IMG/VR virus record: IMGVR_UViG_3300015199_000002
Span: 1-64,000 of that record
Origin: a virus
Length of the DNA stretch: 64,000 nucleotides
Direction: 5' to 3' (one strand)
The position numbers and the translations under genes were made by a program. This document shows, one piece after another, positions 6,479-57,884 of this stretch. Each line of letters begins with the position of its first letter. Positions within the stretch are counted from its first letter, which is position 1. The notes under the pieces are model-generated. The model did not search any database. It saw nothing but the letters and a program-made list of their open reading frames with translations, and had not been told where the DNA came from.

Positions 6479-6652
6479 TTACCTCTTATCCGGCAGGAAT
6501 CCCTGAAGCCCCTTACTTCCAAAAAAAGCCGATGCGCACCACTCGACCCCTTGGACATACTCGTGAGTCAGTTTTCCAGTTAACGACAAAACTGTAAATA
6601 GAAGTATCACCGATCCTAGGGCTATAAGTTCTTCTCTTTCCAGGTAACTCAC
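6479..6652 (-). CDS. Small membrane protein, candidate holin or pinholin
   Basis: This 57-residue frame starts at a GTG overlapping the GIY-YIG stop by four bases (GTGA). It has one membrane segment (LIALGSVILLFTVLSL) followed by a short polar domain with a WCASAFFG segment. It lies directly before the DUF5675 gene, which fits a holin-endolysin pair. A single membrane span without a dual-start motif makes the assignment tentative. Confidence 0.5.
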   Translation of the reverse strand: MSYLEREELIALGSVILLFTVLSLTGKLTHEYVQGVEWCASAFFGSKGLQGFLPDKR

Positions 6653-7488
6653 GTGCCCTCGCTTTCAGCGCGCAGGTCTCTTAGGTACGCAAACCTGAGC
6701 CCTTTGACAGCCTCTTTTTTGCCTTTTACGACCTTTGTTATATCCGTAGGGTACACTCCCAGCTCCTTAGATGCGGCAAGCGCCGAGGGGTAGGTTACCC
6801 CCGTATTAAGACATACGACGGGGATACACTGGCTGACAGCTATGTTTTGTCTGTGCGAAGTAGACAGTTTAGTTCCCTTTTGCGCAGCGGCCATCATTTT
6901 CAACCTGACTATGTTATTGGCCGTCTGCTCTGGAGATTTCGGTCCCATCATTTTCAATCTAGTAGCTTCTGATTTCTTTCTGCCCTTAGTAGACTTAGAA
7001 AGCTTCTCCTTGTGCTCCTCAGAAAGAGCCCTCCCCAGGTGTATCTCTCGCAGTTTTTTCTTATGCTCCTCAGACAGCTTTTTTCCAAAAAATGGATTTT
7101 TGCTTCCTTTTCTGTTTTCGGACATCTTCAGTCTGGTTTCTTTTGAGGGGCTTCGTCCTACTCTAGATAGCGACATTTTTTTCTTGGACTCATCAGAGTA
7201 CTGCTTGCCCTCCCCTCCCGTAGTTAAATTATACCCGTCGGGAGAAAGACTTTGAAAATAGTCTATGAAATATTTTTCGGCTACATTTAGGGTGTCTAAA
7301 TCGGAACATTCGCTCAATACGTCAATAGTAAAGTTGGTAGGTCCGTGCTTAGTTATGGCCTTAGAAATATAAGTCTTAGGATTACTTCTAGGATTTAAAT
7401 GATTTCTCCATCTTCTATTAAGGGGGCCAGTTGTCTGCCCCACATAGCATTTACCGTTAATTTTATTAGTTATTTTATAAATAAGCAT
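6649..7488 (-). CDS. GIY-YIG homing endonuclease with NUMOD3 repeats
   Basis: The 279-residue protein opens with a GIY-YIG nuclease (MLIYKITNKINGKCYVGQT, then NRRWRNHL). Its middle has at least four NUMOD3-type DNA-binding repeats (SEEHKKKL, SKETRLKM and similar). A C-terminal helix-turn-helix-like segment (SALAASKELGVYPTDITKV) resembles I-TevI-type endonucleases. It is wedged in the lysis-like cluster between a holin-like gene and the next small membrane gene, overlapping the latter. It is a mobile gene. Confidence 0.9.
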   Translation of the reverse strand: MLIYKITNKINGKCYVGQTTGPLNRRWRNHLNPRSNPKTYISKAITKHGPTNFTIDVLSECSDLDTLNVAEKYFIDYFQSLSPDGYNLTTGGEGKQYSDESKKKMSLSRVGRSPSKETRLKMSENRKGSKNPFFGKKLSEEHKKKLREIHLGRALSEEHKEKLSKSTKGRKKSEATRLKMMGPKSPEQTANNIVRLKMMAAAQKGTKLSTSHRQNIAVSQCIPVVCLNTGVTYPSALAASKELGVYPTDITKVVKGKKEAVKGLRFAYLRDLRAESEGT

Positions 7489-23424: not shown

Positions 23425-23889
23425 TTACCCTAGAAAATTTATGGAAATGAATCCGGCGACTGGACCTACAGTCTCCATTGACCTAAGCGTGATCCTAGAC
23501 CCAACCGGTATAATTACAGGGACAACGCTGTCTGACCCCGGGTTAATTATCATCTTAAGCGCCTCTGCCGACGGAGCCCCCAGGTACAATCCTAGATACC
23601 TGCCGCCCGTATCCATCAAATGAACCTCAGTGACCGCGTGCGATAAGCTGGCAACTACCTGCACTAGGGCTCCGCCTGAGCCATTAATTGTGTTTGCAGG
23701 AGTTAAAGGAGTATCCAACTCATCCACGACGTCTAGCCCTGTGGCGCCTGGGCCTGCAAGTATCACAGGAAGTATTACTCCGGGAGATACTCCGCTTATA
23801 GTGGTGCGGAGCTGATCGTTCGCTTCGTCATACACTCTCTGTATGATCTGCTGTTCACCTAGTTTTGTGATTGTTGGATTTTGTGCCAT
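23425..23889 (-). CDS. Small structural protein with shared N-terminal module
   Basis: The first about 28 residues (NPTITKLGEQQIIQRVYDE then NDQLR) recur in 28392-28835 and 39874-40614. The rest is beta-rich, ends in ISINFLG, and is more loosely similar to 28392. The repeated N-terminus looks like a docking module for the particle, with swappable partners behind it. Confidence 0.6.
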   Translation of the reverse strand: MAQNPTITKLGEQQIIQRVYDEANDQLRTTISGVSPGVILPVILAGPGATGLDVVDELDTPLTPANTINGSGGALVQVVASLSHAVTEVHLMDTGGRYLGLYLGAPSAEALKMIINPGSDSVVPVIIPVGSRITLRSMETVGPVAGFISINFLG

Positions 23890-39694: not shown

Positions 39695-39874
39695 CTATCT
39701 CAGGTCCCTTACTTTTTCAGTTAGTTCTTTTTCTTTGTCTTCTTGTATCTTTACGTGCTCTTTCATCCTATCGATACTTTCGGATGCTTCTTCAATCCGA
39801 ACTTCCAGGTTCAGTTTAGCGGAATGAACTGCGGCCAACTCGGCCTTAATTTTCTTTATTTCTAGGGGAGTCAT
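39695..39874 (-). CDS. Small coiled-coil protein (59 aa)
   Basis: The frame starts at an ATG overlapping the previous stop (TAATG) and has a charged heptad pattern throughout (LEIKKIKAELAAVHS, VKIQEDKEKELTEKV). It is probably a short coiled-coil partner of one of the neighbouring virion proteins. Confidence 0.6.
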   Translation of the reverse strand: MTPLEIKKIKAELAAVHSAKLNLEVRIEEASESIDRMKEHVKIQEDKEKELTEKVRDLR

Positions 39875-40614
39875 TAACTTATCTCCAATATCTGTAATCT
39901 AGCTTCAAATGTTGCGACTGTTGGTCTTGTGTGAAGAACTTGTATTTGCACATTGTCTCCGGCAACCAGCTGAGTTCCGTTGTTGTCCCAAGATAAAAAG
40001 TCAAAAATTTCATTCATGCTTCCAAAAAAAGTTCTTCGGGTGTCCACCACCACGGAATTGAACAATAACGTGAACTTAGCTATATTCTCTCCTGAGACAC
40101 TTGCTTTTTGGAAAACAGCCGTCTTACTTAGAGGGACAGTATACGTAACTACCTGAGTTGTTATGGAGGAGGCTACTCCAGTGACCTCGTTGTAGGCGTT
40201 AATGACCTTGGTATTCGAGGGGATACTGCCGCCGGGGATTGTATATAAGCTGCCGTCAGGGGCAACCTTTAGTCCTATTAGGTCGGTCCCATCGGTGCCC
40301 CCTATTAGGGTCGCCTGGACGGGCGGAGGAGCTCCCGTAGGTCCTACAGAAGGATTCACGGCAGAGATCGTGCCTGAGACCTGTACTGTACCGTCGGGAG
40401 CTACTCTGATGGCGGCCTGAGGGCCGGTTAAGGTGCCGTCTGTGGTCCCAACCACTACTATGCTGTCTTCTTGGGATGTTATGACGAGAGTCTGCTGCCC
40501 GCCGATATTGACCGACGCGTCTATAGTCGTGCGGAGCTGATCATTAGGCTCGTCGTAGACTCGCTGAAGTATCTGCTGTTCACTAAGTTTAGTGATGTTT
40601 GGGTTTTTAGCCAT
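39874..40614 (-). CDS. Structural protein with shared N-terminal module
   Basis: The 246-residue protein begins NPNITKLSEQQILQRVYDE, the third copy of the module seen at 23425 and 28392. A different beta-rich body follows (VVVGTTDGTLTGPQAAIRV, then LNAYNEVT-like strands). It is the first gene after the scaffold. The body contains one copy of the recurrent TGTCCCT motif (40127-40138). Confidence 0.6.
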   Translation of the reverse strand: MAKNPNITKLSEQQILQRVYDEPNDQLRTTIDASVNIGGQQTLVITSQEDSIVVVGTTDGTLTGPQAAIRVAPDGTVQVSGTISAVNPSVGPTGAPPPVQATLIGGTDGTDLIGLKVAPDGSLYTIPGGSIPSNTKVINAYNEVTGVASSITTQVVTYTVPLSKTAVFQKASVSGENIAKFTLLFNSVVVDTRRTFFGSMNEIFDFLSWDNNGTQLVAGDNVQIQVLHTRPTVATFEARLQILEIS

Positions 40615-40729: not shown

Positions 40730-41683
40730 CTACACTCCCATGTTTCTTTTGCGCTTCGTGAACTCTCTCCAGCTTCCTCGATCTTGAGCGGGAGGGGCTT
40801 CAGTCTGCGATTCAGCGGGCTTAGAGAACTTGGGGTTCGCACTCTTCAATTGCTTCACCTTGGCTTTGGTGATGGCCTTGATGATGTCTTCTCCGAATAG
40901 CGAGATCAGTTTGTCTCCGTCGAGCGCTCCGTCTGCGCCTTTGTACCCGGATACGCGTTCTTGGAACTCTTTGTCATAGTCTTCGCGAGCGATCTTAGCG
41001 AGCTGTTCGGCAGGCATTTCCCAGCCGTTCTTGTTGCTAACGCGTTGAAGTTGTGCCATTCGTGCAATTGACCATGGAGTCTTAGGAACACCGGAGTCTT
41101 CTAATGCTTTTGTGAACAGTTTGTCAAGGCGGGTAATCTGTGCACGTTCTTCAGCCGTTGCAGCTTCCCGTTTCTTGGATTCTTCTCTTACCAACTCCGC
41201 TCTCTTAGCTTCTTCTGCGCGCTCAGCTTCTTTGGCTTCATAGGAGCGAACTTTTTCTTCGAGTTCGCGTTCTTTCTTAGCCGCAGGAGATTCTTGTTCT
41301 CGTTTGATAATTTCAGTGAGAGTTTCTTCTGAGAACTTGCGGAGGTCGATACCGAGTTTCTCCATGGCGACTTTTGGGTTCTCTTTAAGCATCTTGAGAA
41401 CGGCTTCGGTTTCTTTCCGGGACATCGCAGCGTCTTGAAATCTGCGGTTAGCTACTGAAGCCTGCTGAGCTAACTTAATCACGTCTTCTTCTGGAAGTTC
41501 AATATCTGCACCCTCAAGTTTCAACTTGAGTTTGCGAATTTCTTTAGCGGTGGGAGCAGGAGCTTCTGCTGCCGCGGGCGCCGCTACCTTTTCTGTGGCT
41601 GGAGCTACCTTGGTGACGTCTGAAGCCAACGAAGGCGTACTTGCGGGCGGGGCTACTGCTGGGGTTTCTACTGATTGTGACAT
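40730..41683 (-). CDS. Scaffolding protein
   Basis: The 317-residue protein has a low-complexity Ala/Pro start, a long charged helical middle (KKERELEEKVRSYEAKEAE, RREAATAEER-like) and a basic C-terminus ending in FTKRKRNMGV. This composition and its place after the portal gene are typical of podovirus scaffolds. The ATG follows AAAAAGGAGACATCAAA inside the end of the GIY-YIG gene. Confidence 0.75.
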   Translation of the reverse strand: MSQSVETPAVAPPASTPSLASDVTKVAPATEKVAAPAAAEAPAPTAKEIRKLKLKLEGADIELPEEDVIKLAQQASVANRRFQDAAMSRKETEAVLKMLKENPKVAMEKLGIDLRKFSEETLTEIIKREQESPAAKKERELEEKVRSYEAKEAERAEEAKRAELVREESKKREAATAEERAQITRLDKLFTKALEDSGVPKTPWSIARMAQLQRVSNKNGWEMPAEQLAKIAREDYDKEFQERVSGYKGADGALDGDKLISLFGEDIIKAITKAKVKQLKSANPKFSKPAESQTEAPPAQDRGSWREFTKRKRNMGV

Positions 41684-42369
41684 TTTGATGTCTCCTTTTT
41701 AGTTATTAATTGCGCGTTGTAGTATGTCAGGGTTGAAGTGTTTTCTTGCCGCCCCAACAACATGGCGGAAAGAGTCTGCTGTGTAATTTTTATTTTTGAA
41801 GCCGCAGACTTTATAGATTCAAATATTTCTCCAGTAACAGAGTCTACTATTTTTATTCGGCTGTGCGCCGGATGACTTATGCCTTTTTTGGCAGCGCTCA
41901 TTTTTGCTCTAGTTTCTTCCGACCTTACTGCTCCTAGGGCATTCTTATTGCCCGCGAGTGCTTTAGATATTTTAATCCCGGTCGCTGCTGGCCTTTTAAG
42001 TCCTAGATGTCCGTTTGGTTTTCCAGTTTTAGATTCTGAAAGCTTTCTTCTCATTTCTTCCGATCTTACTAACCCCTTAATGCCGGTGGAGTTATCGCCA
42101 CCTTTGGCTATATTGTAGCCGTCTGGAGTTAGTGCCTGGAAGTAATCTATGAAAAAGATCTCGGAGTCATTCAACTGCTCTTGAGATGCGCACCCGCTCA
42201 CCGTGTCTACGGTGAATGACTCGGCTCCATATTTTTTAATGGCTCTAGATAGCAGCGGGCAGCCACTATTTTTAGCCTTATGTTTTGACCATCGGGCTTC
42301 TAAAGACTGAACGGTCTGCCCTATGTAGCACTTTCCGTTCACTTTATTTGTGATTTTATATATTACCAT
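41668..42369 (-). CDS. GIY-YIG homing endonuclease
   Basis: The 233-residue protein starts MVIYKITNKVNGKCYIGQT (GIY-YIG core), continues SLEARWSKH, and has NUMOD3-type repeats (SEEMRRKLSESKTG, SEETRAKMSAAKKG) and a C-terminal helix-turn-helix-like segment. It is packed between the portal and scaffold genes and overlaps the scaffold start. It resembles the gene at 6649 and is mobile. Confidence 0.9.
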   Translation of the reverse strand: MVIYKITNKVNGKCYIGQTVQSLEARWSKHKAKNSGCPLLSRAIKKYGAESFTVDTVSGCASQEQLNDSEIFFIDYFQALTPDGYNIAKGGDNSTGIKGLVRSEEMRRKLSESKTGKPNGHLGLKRPAATGIKISKALAGNKNALGAVRSEETRAKMSAAKKGISHPAHSRIKIVDSVTGEIFESIKSAASKIKITQQTLSAMLLGRQENTSTLTYYNAQLITKKETSKCHNQ

Positions 42370-47518: not shown

Positions 47519-48096
47519 TCTGGTTTACTAGCGATCTCCATTTCGGCCACGAAGCAGTTATTGGATATTCTAAGCGCCCGTTTGACTCTCTAGAAGACAT
47601 GCACACAGAGTTAATTTTACGCTGGAACGAGTGCGTCCAACCAGAAGACACGGTTTATGTTCTAGGAGACTTGGCACTTTGTCCTTACCAGATTTTCGAG
47701 CCAATCGCCACGCGACTCAAGGGTAAAAAGGTTCTGGTAAAAGGAAATCACGACAGTTACTCCAATGGGCAGTACGAACGCGCCGGGTTCCAAGTATTTG
47801 ATGAGATTAAGATGAAGATAGCGGGGCAAGTATGCAGGCTGTCACACTTTCCGTACCGGTTGCCTTGGTATATGCGACCCTTTGCGTATAAATCGGAACT
47901 TAGATTCATGGACCGCAGGCCCCCCAGGATTCCAGGAGAGATACTTTTGCACGGGCACTCACACGTAAAGTACAAGTACGCCGACAGCAGGATACATGTG
48001 GGAGTAGATGCTTGGGATTTTTACCCAGCGTCGGTACGAGAAATAGAATCTATAATCAATAAAATGTCAAAGAAACCTACCTCAGAAACTCCCTAA
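47515..48096 (+). CDS. Calcineurin-like metallophosphoesterase (second copy, different branch)
   Basis: The 193-residue protein has FTSDLHFGHEA, DTVYVLGDLALC, VLVKGNHD and LLHGHSHVKYKY, typical of phage YfcE-like phosphoesterases. Its sequence is too far from its neighbour to be a recent duplicate. Possible substrates include cyclic nucleotides, which could matter in defence evasion, but nothing in the sequence shows this. It runs 20 bases into the serine recombinase gene that converges on it. Confidence 0.85.
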   Translation: MIWFTSDLHFGHEAVIGYSKRPFDSLEDMHTELILRWNECVQPEDTVYVLGDLALCPYQIFEPIATRLKGKKVLVKGNHDSYSNGQYERAGFQVFDEIKMKIAGQVCRLSHFPYRLPWYMRPFAYKSELRFMDRRPPRIPGEILLHGHSHVKYKYADSRIHVGVDAWDFYPASVREIESIINKMSKKPTSETP

Positions 48097-48673
48097 GAAA
48101 GTCGCTCTGAATAGGATTTCGAGACTTCTTGTTGAACAAAGACACCACGCTGCCTTTTGACATACCGGTAGCCTTTGATATTTCGTTAAAGGTGTGTCCG
48201 TCGTTCCGCATGTTCATAGCCAGCGTCAGAGTCTCCACAGAGTGCTTGCCTGGGGGGCCGAGCCTCTGCCCCTTTTCCTTCTTTGCCTGGAGCGCAGCCT
48301 TAGTCCGCTGGCTGATCAGGGACCTCTCCAGCTCTGCCACCATCACCATGGCCTGGGCGGTGAATCTGCCCGACGGGGTGCTGTAATCGACCCCCTCCCG
48401 AAGAGATACGATGTTAACCCCTCGTTTGTACAGGCCCTCAATCAGCCCAATTATGTCTAGGAGCTTCCTTCCTAGGCGATCTAAGGCGGCTATGGCTAAG
48501 GTGTCTCCAGACTGGATCTTCTTTAGGAGCTTCTCTAGCTCTGGTCGCTCCTTGACACCGCTTGCGGTCTCCCGGTACAGGAATGCCTCTGGGTAGCGCT
48601 TTAGGAGATCGTGCTCCTGCGTATCTACGACCTGCTTGTTCGAACTCACGCGACAGTATATGTAAATCGACAT
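48077..48673 (-). CDS. Serine recombinase (resolvase/invertase type)
   Basis: The start is placed at MSIYIYCRVSSNKQ because this begins the catalytic domain. Ser10 in CRVSSNKQ is the likely nucleophile and LDRLGRK holds the family arginines. A C-terminal helix-turn-helix (NEISKATGMSKGSVVSLF) binds DNA. Short members catalyse inversion or resolution; large integrases of this family are much longer. It may invert a segment of phage DNA, but no partner sites were identified. Confidence 0.85.
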   Translation of the reverse strand: MSIYIYCRVSSNKQVVDTQEHDLLKRYPEAFLYRETASGVKERPELEKLLKKIQSGDTLAIAALDRLGRKLLDIIGLIEGLYKRGVNIVSLREGVDYSTPSGRFTAQAMVMVAELERSLISQRTKAALQAKKEKGQRLGPPGKHSVETLTLAMNMRNDGHTFNEISKATGMSKGSVVSLFNKKSRNPIQSDFLREFLR

Positions 48674-48813
48674 ACTTAGAGCGTATACTGACCGGTCATT
48701 GAAAGCAAGTAAAATCTTGGTAAGGGGCGCCATTGGCTACCGGGTTCAGTTTTACCTTACCCGCTGGACGAGCGTTGCCCTTTTACTCCTGCCTACTCGG
48801 AACCTCATTCACT

Positions 48814-51575: not shown

Positions 51576-52118
51576 ATGAAGAAATACAAACTACGGCTAG
51601 ATCTTAAGTTAGAAGTGTACAGTAAGACTCTCTATAGAATCGAGAGGTTACGTGACGGCAAACCTACAGGCGACGTAGGCGGTTACATTGAGAGTGAAGC
51701 TAACCTCTCCCAAGACGGCACCTGTTGGGTGTACGGCGACGCTTGGGTGTACGGCAACGCTCGGGTGTCCGGCAACGCTTGGGTGTTCGGCAACGCTTGG
51801 GTGTTCGGCAACGCTCAGGTGTACGGCGACGCTCTGGTGTACGGCGACGCTCGGGTGTCCGGCGACGCTTGGGTGTCCGGCGACGCTTGGATATCTTCAG
51901 TAAATGAAATAGTTAATTTCATAATTGCATTCAGTTTTTCTATCACTATAACTCCCGATAACATTGCAATAGGGTGTCAACTAAAAAAGCGTTCGGAATG
52001 GCTTAAGGTGTCAATCGACGACGCCGAGAAGATGGGCCTGCCTCGCGAACTATTCCCTCAGTACAGGAAGCTTGTTAAGATCGGAATGAAACTGGTCCCT
52101 AAAAGGAGTTCAAAATGA
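51576..52118 (+). CDS. Hexapeptide-repeat (beta-helix-like) protein
   Basis: The 180-residue protein has three parts. An N-terminal segment (about 1-52) is conserved in all three copies. A repeat domain (about 53-105) has WVYGDA, RVSGNA, WVFGNA, QVYGDA, LVYGDA and so on. The C-terminal domain is unlike that of 53249. In the repeats Val, Gly and Ala codons are nearly fixed (GTG, GGC, GCT), and variation sits in three codons and changes the residue. It follows ATTGGAGGCAGT, the same leader as 53249. A left-handed beta-helix fold is inferred. Confidence 0.85.
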   Translation: MKKYKLRLDLKLEVYSKTLYRIERLRDGKPTGDVGGYIESEANLSQDGTCWVYGDAWVYGNARVSGNAWVFGNAWVFGNAQVYGDALVYGDARVSGDAWVSGDAWISSVNEIVNFIIAFSFSITITPDNIAIGCQLKKRSEWLKVSIDDAEKMGLPRELFPQYRKLVKIGMKLVPKRSSK

Positions 52119-52907: not shown

Positions 52908-53252
52908 ATGGCAATCGAGCATGACATCAGGAAAGCAATGATACTCGCCTCTGACATATTCCAAGACGAGCCCGGTACAGACGAAGAGATCGAGATCCTA
53001 CAGAGTATTCCTAGTCTTGGGCGCGATAGAGTTGAGTGCATAGATGCACGCATGCCTACATTGTTCGATGAGTTGTATGACGCGGAGATGAGTCTTCAGG
53101 TGAAACTTCTCGTCCTCGCGTGCGCACGGGGGATTGGGCTTCCAGTACCTTCGCTTGAGGTTGGTGTGGTGTCGGCTATGCATAGAGCTATTGGTTTGCG
53201 CGCTGAGTATTTGGCTTCGGATGAAGGTGAACTAGAATTGGAGGCAGTATGA
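52908..53252 (+). CDS. Hypothetical protein (114 aa)
   Basis: The protein is acidic and mostly helical, with LQVKLLVLACARGIGLPVPS in the middle. AAGAAAGGAATTCAT precedes the start. Its stop overlaps the next hexapeptide gene (ATGA), whose leader ATTGGAGGCAGT lies inside this gene's end. Confidence 0.6.
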   Translation: MAIEHDIRKAMILASDIFQDEPGTDEEIEILQSIPSLGRDRVECIDARMPTLFDELYDAEMSLQVKLLVLACARGIGLPVPSLEVGVVSAMHRAIGLRAEYLASDEGELELEAV

Positions 53253-53791
53253 AGAAATACAAGCTACGGTTAGACCTTAAGTTAGAAGTACACGGAACAA
53301 CTCTCTATAGAATCGAGAGGTTACGTGACGGCAAGCCTACAGGCGACGTAGGCGGTTACATTGAGAGTGAAGCTAACCTCTCCCAAGACGGCACCTGCTG
53401 GGTGTACGGCAACGCTCTGGTGTACGACAACGCTCGGGTGTACGACAACGCTCGGGTGTACGGCGACGCTTGGGTGTTCGGCAACGCCCTGGTGTACGGC
53501 AACGCTTGGGTGTTCGGCAACGCTCTGGTGTCCGGCAACGCTTGGGTGTCCGGCGACGCTCGTATTGATTCAATTGATGCGATAATAGTTTTAACCATAG
53601 CCGCGTCATATTCAGTAACCATAACAAGAACTCTTATTTTTGCTGGATGCGCTAAAATAAGCCGATCTAAGATCAACAGCATGACTGCCAAACAATTCCA
53701 AAGGATAGGGGGTAATCCCAAATACTTTAAGGCGTACAAACAAATGGTCTTGGGCGCCATGCTTATAGTCAAACCTAAGAAAGCGAAATGA
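53249..53791 (+). CDS. Hexapeptide-repeat (beta-helix-like) protein
   Basis: The 180-residue paralogue of 51576 has an almost identical first 52 residues, eleven six-residue units with a different order of variants (LVYDNA, RVYGDA, WVFGNA), and a distinct C-terminal domain. DNA identity extends into the leader. The same length but different end suggests exchange of modules between copies. Confidence 0.85.
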   Translation: MKKYKLRLDLKLEVHGTTLYRIERLRDGKPTGDVGGYIESEANLSQDGTCWVYGNALVYDNARVYDNARVYGDAWVFGNALVYGNAWVFGNALVSGNAWVSGDARIDSIDAIIVLTIAASYSVTITRTLIFAGCAKISRSKINSMTAKQFQRIGGNPKYFKAYKQMVLGAMLIVKPKKAK

Positions 53792-53792
53792 T

Positions 53793-54218
53793 ATGCGTAG
53801 TTACTCCATCTTATCTGCAATGATTTTACTCGCGTGCGCGCCTAAGCAACCGATCACCATTGATCAGAACTTGGTGCCATACTTCGAGATGTTTCAGAAT
53901 ACGATTGGAGTATCTACTGCGGACGTGTCCGGGCGAATGGATGAGCTAGTGTTGCCTACGATTGGCGTATGCACGGTGGATGAGTCGGGAAACAAGGTCG
54001 TGCATATAGACGCCACCTACTGGAATGCAAGTAACGATGATGCGCGCGAGATGTTAGTGTTCCATGAGCTCGGGCACTGCGCTATGGGTCGGGTTCACGA
54101 CGTGGCGGTTGATAAGTACGGGTGCCCATTGAGTATTATGTATCCCCATGATTTTCCAGATAAGTGTTTCGAAGTGAATAGACAGGCTTATTACGCTGAG
54201 ATGATTTCTTATAAATGA
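53793..54218 (+). CDS. Lipoprotein zinc metallopeptidase
   Basis: The 141-residue protein has a lipobox with Cys15 (MILLACAP), so it should be lipid-anchored in the envelope. It carries HELGHCAMGRVH at 91-102, with likely zinc ligands His91, His95 and His102 and catalytic Glu92, followed by a Met-turn-like SIMYP at 114-118. The layout resembles metzincins, with one extra residue before the glycine. It would cut proteins at the cell surface or periplasm; its target is unknown. It is close to the hexapeptide and pilin-like genes. Confidence 0.75.
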   Translation: MRSYSILSAMILLACAPKQPITIDQNLVPYFEMFQNTIGVSTADVSGRMDELVLPTIGVCTVDESGNKVVHIDATYWNASNDDAREMLVFHELGHCAMGRVHDVAVDKYGCPLSIMYPHDFPDKCFEVNRQAYYAEMISYK

Positions 54219-55012: not shown

Positions 55013-55210
55013 ATGGAAACTACACAACAGATGAAAGACATTTTGGCGGCGATTGACTCAGTGAAGGCTAGAGCTAAGGCTTGCATCAAGTCAGGACAGA
55101 GGATGGAAGCGGAGAAGCTTGTAGGTGACTTGATTGCCCTTGACGCCTGCTTGGTTGGAGAAGTGGCGTCACAGGTAAAGACTGAAGAGTCTGGCAGAGA
55201 TGCCGCGTAA
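55013..55210 (+). CDS. Hypothetical helical protein (65 aa)
   Basis: METTQQMKDILAAIDSVKAR begins a wholly helical small protein with two cysteines. An AAAAGGGAG sequence precedes the start. It is not recognised. Confidence 0.55.
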   Translation: METTQQMKDILAAIDSVKARAKACIKSGQRMEAEKLVGDLIALDACLVGEVASQVKTEESGRDAA

Positions 55211-55220
55211 AGGAGAATTT

Positions 55221-55562
55221 ATGCGATCATGGTGGCCTATTGAAGCATCTATACTAGATAACAAGCGCCTTCTGGGCGAACATAATGAATTACTTATTAT
55301 GGCCAGAGCAATCGCCGGGATAAACAAAGGATATAGAAATCATCCTGAAACTAAACGGTGGATAGGTCATTCAAAAGCAATGAAGCGACGACACAACGAA
55401 TTAGCTGATGAAATGGAAAAAAGGGGATTTAATCACAAAAGTCCTTGGCCTGATAATGTTATGAATTCGGATGATACCGACGCTTGGCCAAATACTTTTT
55501 GGGAATCCCTTGATGTTATGAAAACAAAACTAGCTGAGAAAATGGGAAAGGAAACTCTATGA
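55221..55562 (+). CDS. Pyrimidine dimer DNA glycosylase (endonuclease V-like)
   Basis: The 113-residue protein matches the T4 endonuclease V family: LLGEHNELL, GYRNHPETKRWIGH, then HNELADEMEKRGFNHKSPWP. These proteins cut at ultraviolet-induced pyrimidine dimers. The start at 55221 follows AAAGGAGAATTT. In T4 the residue after Met is the nucleophile; here it is Arg, as in several bacterial relatives. It would repair phage DNA or host DNA after damage. Confidence 0.75.
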   Translation: MRSWWPIEASILDNKRLLGEHNELLIMARAIAGINKGYRNHPETKRWIGHSKAMKRRHNELADEMEKRGFNHKSPWPDNVMNSDDTDAWPNTFWESLDVMKTKLAEKMGKETL

Positions 55563-56182
55563 CAAACAACAAAGGTTTTACCCTAATCGAAACAATGATC
55601 GCGATGGGGCTCATGTGCCTAGGAGCCCTAGCTTTCGCGCAGATTGTCACCAACATGGGTCTGGCCCAGAATTGGAGCGACTTCAGACTTGCTACAAACT
55701 CCCTGGCGTCTTCTATGGTCGGGAGCTTGAATAACCCAGCAAGTTGCACACAGGGGTTTTCGGGTATTACTTTTGTGCCTACTGGCAATCCTGTGCCGGT
55801 TAGCTTTGGCCTACCGAACAGGGTCCTAGGTGCCGGAGTTATCGTGCCAAACTACAAGTTGAGCATCTTGTCTCTTAACTTCATTAACTACGTTCCGGTT
55901 CAGAATAATCCAGACGGAAGTGTAACGTACTTTGGGGATCTGTCCATGACAACTAAAGCCAGCAAGAAAGTGCTGGGAGGAGACACGTCTACTGTAGTTG
56001 TCGACTCTATCTACTTGACGACTATGGCAAGTTTGGTAGTGGCTTGCGGTAACGTCTCACCTCCTTCTCCGAGTCCCTCTCCGTCGCCGACTCCAGACCC
56101 TACACCGCTACCATCTCCGGTTCCGACATACACCTATACGCCGGAACACAACGATTCGCCTTGCGATCACGATAACCATTAA
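55559..56182 (+). CDS. Type IV prepilin-like protein
   Basis: The first residues are a canonical class III signal, MTNNKGFTLIETMIAMG: a short basic leader, Gly6, then Phe7 and Glu11 (position +5 of the mature protein). A 20-residue hydrophobic helix follows. The body is beta-rich, and the C-terminal 40 residues are a Ser/Pro linker (PPSPSPSPSPTPDPTPLP) and a His/Asp-rich end. Length (207 aa) suits minor pilins or pseudopilins. Its ATG overlaps the glycosylase stop (ATGA). Maturation would need the host prepilin peptidase. Confidence 0.85.
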   Translation: MTNNKGFTLIETMIAMGLMCLGALAFAQIVTNMGLAQNWSDFRLATNSLASSMVGSLNNPASCTQGFSGITFVPTGNPVPVSFGLPNRVLGAGVIVPNYKLSILSLNFINYVPVQNNPDGSVTYFGDLSMTTKASKKVLGGDTSTVVVDSIYLTTMASLVVACGNVSPPSPSPSPSPTPDPTPLPSPVPTYTYTPEHNDSPCDHDNH

Positions 56183-56200
56183 CCAGTGAAAGGATATGAT

Positions 56201-56473
56201 ATGAAATTTAAAAAGAAGTTCGTTGAATACAGAGAAGCAGAGGTTCGCACCGTAAAAGCCGGCAAGGGTTACCACTTTGCAATTCCCATAAATGACTTAG
56301 AAAGAGAGATGAGTAGAAAAGACATATTTAAACGGGCTCACTTCTTTAACGATCACGGAAGTGTATATGCGGCATTCACAACTTTATATCAAGTCTATGA
56401 AAACGGAGAGAAGTTCGACTTCTTTGTAACGAAGAAGGCCGCCATAAAGCGCGCAAAAGACTATCTTAAATAA
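56201..56473 (+). CDS. Hypothetical protein (90 aa)
   Basis: The ATG at 56201 is preceded by GAAAGGATATGAT. The protein begins MKFKKKFVEYREAEV and is highly charged throughout, with an alternating basic/acidic C-terminus. No family is recognised. Confidence 0.6.
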   Translation: MKFKKKFVEYREAEVRTVKAGKGYHFAIPINDLEREMSRKDIFKRAHFFNDHGSVYAAFTTLYQVYENGEKFDFFVTKKAAIKRAKDYLK

Positions 56474-56633: not shown

Positions 56634-57392
56634 ATGAGAATTGCATTACTTATTTGTCTTGTGGCTTTAGCCGGATGTGAGCAGCAACAGGACTTGATCT
56701 CTAATGGCACGAATGGTGCCACAGGCGGTACCGGTGCTAATGGATCGGACGGGTCGCAAGGTGCAACCGGTGCCACAGGTGCTCAAGGCGAGGCCGGAGC
56801 AGCTGGGTCCATAGGTAGGGCTGGGAGTACAGGGGTAAACGGCGCTATGGGCATTCCTGGGTCTAATGGGACAAATGGCGCTAACGGTGCGGCCTGCCAG
56901 CAGGGGGCTAAGGGTGCCTCCGGCGCTACCGGAGCTTCTGGGCTAAACGGCGTTTCAGGTAAGAACGGATCTACTGGTGCCTCTGGAGCCAACGGTTCAA
57001 CTGGACTGAATGGGTCTGCCGGGACTGGCGGCGGTAGCGGGACTAAGGGCGCTACCGGTGCAACAGGGGCGACAGGCGCTAGTGGCCTTAAAGGACCTAC
57101 TGGGAATACAGGGGCTACAGGACCCCAGGGACTTAAAGGCGACCAGGGAGGCAAGTGCGGCACCCGAGTCTCTTTCGTCCTGAAGGCATTCTCATGCCTA
57201 AAGATTACAACGGATTACCACGCTACTGTTTGCGAGAGAGGCATTACGTTGCATAAGAGTGAGAGGTGCGATGATGACTATGACAAGGTATTAGTCATTG
57301 ACAAGGACCACCATGCTCTCTATATCAACGGCGTTCTATACTTGAAAGACAGCGCCAATGACTCTATACTTGATACTATTGATTTTAACTAA
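56634..57392 (+). CDS. Collagen-like lipoprotein
   Basis: A short signal peptide ends in a lipobox (LVALAGC, Cys15). Residues 24-174 are Gly-X-Y triplets rich in Asn, Thr and Ala (GATGATGAQGEAG), with one interruption near 86-90 containing Cys. The last about 75 residues are a separate domain with four cysteines. Collagen-like triplets form trimers, so it would be a lipid-anchored triple-helical protein at the cell surface. It is in the same operon as the prepilin. A virion function is less likely because of the lipobox. Confidence 0.85.
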   Translation: MRIALLICLVALAGCEQQQDLISNGTNGATGGTGANGSDGSQGATGATGAQGEAGAAGSIGRAGSTGVNGAMGIPGSNGTNGANGAACQQGAKGASGATGASGLNGVSGKNGSTGASGANGSTGLNGSAGTGGGSGTKGATGATGATGASGLKGPTGNTGATGPQGLKGDQGGKCGTRVSFVLKAFSCLKITTDYHATVCERGITLHKSERCDDDYDKVLVIDKDHHALYINGVLYLKDSANDSILDTIDFN

Positions 57393-57404: not shown

Positions 57405-57884
57405 ATGAATAAACTAATGATGCTTTTGATTCTTTTCTCTACCTCTGCAATGTCCGATCAGTCCTGCCATAAAGAAGTGAGCTGTGTTGAAGAGAGGCAG
57501 TGCGTATACCGCAAGCCTGTCGTCCGAACGGTTGTAAAGAGAGTGGTTGTTGAGAAGGTAGTGGAGAAGATTGTCTATGTCGATCGACCGGTAGAGAAGA
57601 CCGTTGTCGTTAACCAGATCTCAATTGGCAATAAGAGTGGTTCCAACGAGAAGAGAGTCTTGGTAGATAAGAATAGTAGTAACCGTAACTCAATCAGTCT
57701 ATTGGGAATGGCTACCCCTACTGCTTTGAATGTCCAAGGAACTGCCAATAACTACAAAGCTTCTACAGAGTACCGGCCGGACCTCGGGTTAATGTACCAG
57801 CGTGACTTCGGGGACAGCGTCCGGGGATCTCTTGGTGCGACGATTAGGGGTAATGGTCTTGCTGCGCTTGGATGGAATTTTTAA
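57405..57884 (+). CDS. Exported protein with Val-rich repeats and OMP-like C-terminus
   Basis: The 159-residue protein has a Sec signal (MNKLMMLLILFSTSAM), two or more cysteines, and a valine/lysine-rich stretch (VVKRVVVEKVVEKIVYVDRP). Its C-terminal segment (LGATIRGNGLAALGWNF) ends in Phe like outer-membrane beta-barrel strands. The Val-rich segment resembles the virion-region protein at 21139. An outer-membrane-associated role is possible. Confidence 0.65.
   Translation: MNKLMMLLILFSTSAMSDQSCHKEVSCVEERQCVYRKPVVRTVVKRVVVEKVVEKIVYVDRPVEKTVVVNQISIGNKSGSNEKRVLVDKNSSNRNSISLLGMATPTALNVQGTANNYKASTEYRPDLGLMYQRDFGDSVRGSLGATIRGNGLAALGWNF

Follow-up and report, generated by a model that had tools for sequence, protein, structure and literature searches.

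Several phage proteins, among them D3112 Gp05, DMS3 Aqs1 and QDWS Gp21, are described as inactivating type IV pili, and superinfection exclusion is a known benefit of the changes that phages make to pili (PMC11436027). The known effects come about mostly by inhibition of the pilus assembly ATPase or of pilin expression: the three proteins target the PilB ATPase or PilA/PilB expression, and none of them is described in that work as a prepilin (PMC11436027). Prepilin sequences are already held in phage databases, since several PHROGs families carry a prepilin N-terminus, one of them under the name 'pilin', and small prepilins of 83-93 aa occur in T4-like contigs (L004-L011) and in the cultured cyanophage Synechococcus phage BUCT-ZZ01, whose host is S. 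elongatus and whose copy, UTS52068.1, is annotated as hypothetical. Phage-borne prepilins recur across unrelated tailed phages and are mostly deposited as hypothetical proteins.

The window analyzed here comprises the first 64,000 nucleotides of the IMG/VR virus record IMGVR_UViG_3300015199_000002, which has 82,984 bases, and carries an ORF with an ATG start that encodes a prepilin-like protein of 207 aa followed by a stop codon (Table 1). Like the small T4-like prepilins, which form a second phage prepilin family, this protein is phage-encoded and has a complete GFTLIE signal, but the small proteins possess a conserved body of their own (GVNGMTEIRCIDGY ... LDEFGKGVRC) that is unrelated to it; PHROG 13280 (phrog_13280), which represents the small T4-like family, is matched by members L005, L010 and L011 and not by the window protein. 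With Gp05, Aqs1 and Gp21 it can be likened by description, not by sequence, in the outcome proposed below, namely an altered pilus and the exclusion of other phages. The sequence-only reading had called a full prepilin inside a tailed-phage operon unusual. A full-length Bdellovibrionia-type prepilin carried by a phage is new, but phage prepilins as such are already known and are less unusual than that reading supposed. Among openly accessible papers, none was found that describes a prepilin of this type from a tailed phage, which does not prove that there is none.

The N-terminus of the product reads MTNNKG^FTLIETMIAMG, with Gly at -1, Phe at +1, Glu at +5 and a hydrophobic segment directly following, and the complete prepilin signal claimed from the letters alone was borne out by two profile searches above their curated cut-offs: Pfam PF07963 N_methyl (E 5.8e-7, 29.3 bits, cut-off 21.2) and NCBIfam TIGR02532 (IV_pilin_GFxxxE; 22.6 bits, cut-off 16.3). 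Gly6 and Phe7 are invariant across the 55 members of the family alignment described below (A4). The product is the sole N_methyl match of the whole phage record, and when ORFs with a minimum length of 100 aa were scanned for a strict prepilin motif, the real sequence gave one occurrence and 30 shuffled copies gave none. The start of the gene and the stop of the upstream gene share the sequence ATGA and a Shine-Dalgarno-like element precedes the start, so that the ORF looks like a properly translated operon gene. These results support the view that the product is a genuine prepilin-like protein within a tailed-phage genome.

Table 1. Coordinates of the prepilin gene, its features, its neighbors and the cyanophage prepilin.
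Feature	Position	Strand	Basis or remark
Invertase/resolvase-like recombinase	48077-48733		Only recombinase noted
YdcK-like beta-solenoid genes	51576-52118, 53249-53791, L002:16987-17463, L002:18469-18966		Repeated
Metallopeptidase-like protein, exported lipoprotein-like start	53793-54218		PF18894 above cut-off
T4 endonuclease V-like pyrimidine dimer glycosylase; stop overlaps prepilin start (ATGA)	55200-55562	+	PF03013, E 3.1e-23
AAGGA, Shine-Dalgarno-like, 6 bases 5' of prepilin ATG	55548-55552	+	Sequence
Prepilin-like gene, 207 aa	55559-56182	+	ORF; N_methyl above curated cut-off; body homologous to Bdellovibrionia prepilin family by profile
Class III leader MTNNKG, predicted cleavage after Gly6	55559-55576	+	Sequence; PF07963, TIGR02532
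Predicted alpha-1 helix, residues 9-58	55583-55732	+	AlphaFold2, pLDDT about 90-96 here
Cys63 in NNPASCTQGFSG, family motif NPxxCxxxFsG	55745-55747	+	Invariant in alignment A4; 86% of wider set of 70
Predicted antiparallel beta-sheet, residues 101-164	55859-56050	+	AlphaFold2; DSSP strands E101-116, E122-134, E143-154, E159-164
Cys163	56045-56047	+	Cys in 69% of the wider set of 70 (48 of 52 sequences with a residue at this site)
Pro/Ser/Thr-rich tail, residues 168-189, where many host members have long C-terminal regions	56060-56125	+	Sequence; host architectures
Small gene directly 3' of prepilin	56186-56473	+	ORF; no significant family match
Collagen-like protein with lipobox (LAGC), probable surface lipoprotein	56634-57392	+	PF01391, E 1.9e-20; lipobox by sequence
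Exported protein, signal peptide-like start	57405-57884	+	Sequence
BUCT-ZZ01 prepilin UTS52068.1	L106:1995-2246		Annotated hypothetical

The record belongs to a tailed phage according to its PHROGs matches, which include terminase, portal, capsid, a family A DNA polymerase, a DnaB-like helicase, a UvsX-like recombinase and an SbcC-like subunit. It lacks terminal repeats and is possibly incomplete, and no tRNA genes were found within the 64-kb window. The identified virion genes occupy the minus strand between 7797 and 46001, and the prepilin gene lies away from this module in a plus-strand accessory cluster at about 51-58 kb, alongside the metallopeptidase-like gene and YdcK-like genes; in this cluster the collagen-like gene stands three genes downstream of the repair enzyme that precedes the prepilin. 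A chimeric assembly was also considered: YdcK-like paralogues, of which three compared copies are 60-78% identical and vary in repeat number, lie next to the prepilin cluster and recur at the far end of the record, at a distance of about 27-29 kb, an arrangement that argues against a chimera without excluding it. Genes for a prepilin peptidase (PF01478, peptidase A24) and a T2SSE-type ATPase (PF00437) were both absent from the record, so that any processing of the product must be carried out by the host.

The best and most extensive phage matches of the terminase (27% identity), portal (30%) and capsid (26%) were all to a phage of Silvanigrella aquatica, which belongs to the class Oligoflexia of the Bdellovibrionota (NCBI taxonomy), and a distant relative of the portal was found in two Bdellovibrionia genomes. 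Independently of the prepilin, and at identities of 26-30%, these virion genes suggest that the phage probably infects a member of the Bdellovibrionota. Bdellovibrio-like bacteria are often predatory. Portal and capsid searches yielded one related phage contig; the prepilin gene is absent from this contig and from the Silvanigrella phage and is thus not conserved in the phage lineage. Neither single-sequence nor signal-alignment scans found the window protein in other viral contigs.

Single-sequence scans of IMG/VR, INPHARED and GTDB returned no relatives of the window protein. Relatives surfaced only when the scan was conducted with an alignment of the N-terminal signal, the extra rows of which were invented variants that widened the search pattern, and the resulting matches were confirmed with the real protein. 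The best match came from a Bdellovibrionales MAG, with similarity extending to residue 99. At E≤0.01 the window protein itself was matched in 80 of 129 genomes of the Bdellovibrionia, frequently more than once and with alignments extending up to residues 2-166, as compared to 16 of 123 Gammaproteobacteria, six of which were matched on the Pro-rich tail only. We then examined the body alone with a profile built without the window protein and with the first 35 residues cut away (residues 36-175 kept). The window body scored 37.2 bits with this HMM, a value reached by none of 20,000 shuffles that preserve composition only. To limit circularity, a second HMM was built only from members that had themselves matched no further than residue 95 (41 in all), and still gave 28.8 bits (0/20,000 shuffles). 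The part beyond residue 73 alone gave a weak signal (5.0 bits, 48/20,000 shuffles). By these comparisons the body of the window protein (residues 36-175) is homologous to an unnamed, expanded prepilin family of the Bdellovibrionia. The pilin relation therefore extends past the first 30 residues and the body matches no phage structural family, the two points on which the sequence-only reading had made its pilin call depend.

The window protein and the Bdellovibrionia family have in common the signal, alpha-1, the NPxxCxxxFsG motif, a second cysteine and the domain length; Cys163 is likely the disulfide partner of Cys63. They differ in that the window copy is phage-borne and only about 16-27% identical to host members over the domain, an identity too low for the source genome of the phage copy to be identified. 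Tree building placed the window protein within the family, beside L013 (support 0.89), on a long branch of about 1.3 substitutions per site.

This host family, of which L013, L024, L040 and L041 are examples in the alignment, is large and unnamed. Its 55-row profile matched 56 of 57 Bdellovibrionia genomes at E≤1e-6, with 309 matches in total (about 5.4 per genome, maximum 15), many of which cover the whole domain; among Gammaproteobacteria, 6 of 56 genomes were matched, over the first 48-77 positions only. N_methyl is the only substantial Pfam match of the family, whose members are between about 200 and about 1,000 aa long. One member ends in an adhesin-like Peptidase_S74 domain, which also occurs on phage tail fibres. 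The analysis exposes a prepilin family in which each genome has about five copies and an adhesin-like end occurs in at least one member. In two genomes, the neighbor of a member of 196-210 aa begins with a hydrophobic GSAIVLAL-type segment and resembles PilX by eye, a likeness that Pfam did not confirm. We claim no link between this family and the MAT fibres of Bdellovibrio, as the paper on these fibres does not mention pilins.

In sequence, the family is related to solved type IV pilins beyond the signal. Searched against the PDB, the family profile found the Geobacter pilin at 8.7e-7 over positions 2-62 and, at 7.7e-4 over positions 8-77, Myxococcus PilA; the window protein alone reached the Geobacter pilin only at E 1.5, over residues 2-32. 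An AlphaFold2 model of the window protein built with the family alignment had a mean pLDDT of 82 and predicts a helix of about 50 residues, corresponding to alpha-1, the membrane and assembly helix of pilins, then an antiparallel sheet and finally a disordered C-terminal tail. This predicted succession of helix and sheet would be the order of elements expected of a pilin, and the model of a host family member, made as a control, displayed a similar layout. When the window model was compared by Foldseek with PDB and BFVD, neither a solved nor a viral structure matched at E≤0.001, and since the host-member control was likewise unmatched in the PDB, this negative result tells more about how far the family has diverged than about the window protein. 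The protein shares the N-terminal signal and helix with the named minor pilins and pseudopilins but remains far under their curated cut-offs. Among partial NCBIfam matches that go beyond the signal, PilV (TIGR02523; 21.8 bits, cut-off 52.2) was the best (residues 5-57, E 2.1e-4). ComGE (NF041013; 22.4 bits against 49), GspI (12.5 against 44.35), GspH (11.8 against 80) and the T2SS protein J family NF006453 (11.1 against 295) also scored below cut-off.

We propose, with moderate confidence, that the gene is a moron of a Bdellovibrionota phage, derived from the minor-pilin-type family of this lineage, that uses the PilD of the host and either becomes part of the host's pili or pseudopili or poisons them. 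The product would be inserted into the host inner membrane, and the prepilin peptidase of the host (PilD) would cleave and methylate it; alpha-1 and Glu+5 would bring it into the assembly of a host type IV pilus or pseudopilus, where it would act as a foreign minor pilin. The altered or blunted pili could hide the pilus or a pilus-linked receptor from other phages, or could change host adhesion, during infection or lysogeny. Whereas many Bdellovibrionia members run on into long C-terminal regions, the window protein ends in its Pro-rich tail, and because it has no large C-terminal display region, altered or blunted pili would be the most likely outcome. For this reason we favor a blunted or decoy subunit, even if some host members are no longer than the phage version, at about 200 aa (L041 and L042 for example). 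If true, the supply of a pilin-like subunit by a phage would be a route of acting on pili different from the known ones. The model member of the lineage invades its prey using pili (PMC3818213). A more specific version of the proposal, which we advance only tentatively, would have a PilD-processed decoy minor pilin, deprived of the display region of host members, cap or reprogram the pili with which these bacteria make surface contact and, where they are predators, enter prey, and thereby exclude rival phages or switch predation in the course of infection.

Other readings of the same observations have to be weighed against a foreign subunit that alters host pili. The product could be a functional extra minor pilin that aids the host in adhesion, prey contact or surface attachment during lysogeny or a long infection, with no part in phage exclusion. 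Such a role would agree with the expansion of the family in the hosts, with the Peptidase_S74 end of at least one member and with the collagen-like lipoprotein encoded in the prepilin's own cluster; it is nevertheless unlikely in our judgment, given that the phage copy lacks a display domain and that no clear lysogeny module was seen, the sole recombinase noted being invertase/resolvase-like. We give rather little credence to a captured host gene that has become a neutral passenger of the phage and affects pili slightly or not at all. Its absence from the related phages, its long tree branch and its codon usage, one of the more atypical in the record (rank 13 of 87), are what a passenger might show, but the frame is intact and overlaps the upstream gene, and the signal and both family cysteines have been retained at about 75-80% divergence, which indicates selection.

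Two further readings dispense with the pilus altogether. The presence of other probable envelope proteins in the neighborhood, namely the collagen-like, exported and metallopeptidase-like products, could point to an action within the cell envelope, for instance by a lysis or exclusion protein in which the prepilin helix is a mere membrane anchor. A simple anchor would need neither Gly-1, Phe+1 and Glu+5 nor the body with C63 and C163, all of which have been kept, and we find this explanation improbable. The least credible is a structural role in the virion, for example as fibre or decoration, which we consider very improbable, in agreement with the sequence-only reading, which had ranked a structural role below the others. 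The Pro-rich tail weakly resembles the tail-fibre profile phrog_15824 (E 0.089), a match confined to low-complexity sequence and the only structural PHROG obtained; moreover, the gene is situated outside the structural block and on the opposite strand, and its signal would direct the protein to the inner membrane and PilD.

Several other genes of the record deserve mention. The product of 1622-2194 is reminiscent of GspC in its layout, with a TonB-like membrane segment at the N-terminus and a weak match to PDZ (PF17820, E 0.0074, under the cut-off), and that of L002:1844-2536 has a ClpP-like protease domain (PF00574) after an apparent signal peptide and is possibly exported. In the tail-fibre-like region, 23425-23889 and 39874-40614 have paralogous starts (MA.NP.ITKL.EQQI.QRVYDE.NDQLRTTI), which suggests a duplication of fibre-associated genes. 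Finally, starts of the GIY-YIG homing endonuclease type (MLIYKITNKINGKCYVGQT) were recognized by eye in 6649-7488 and 41668-42369.
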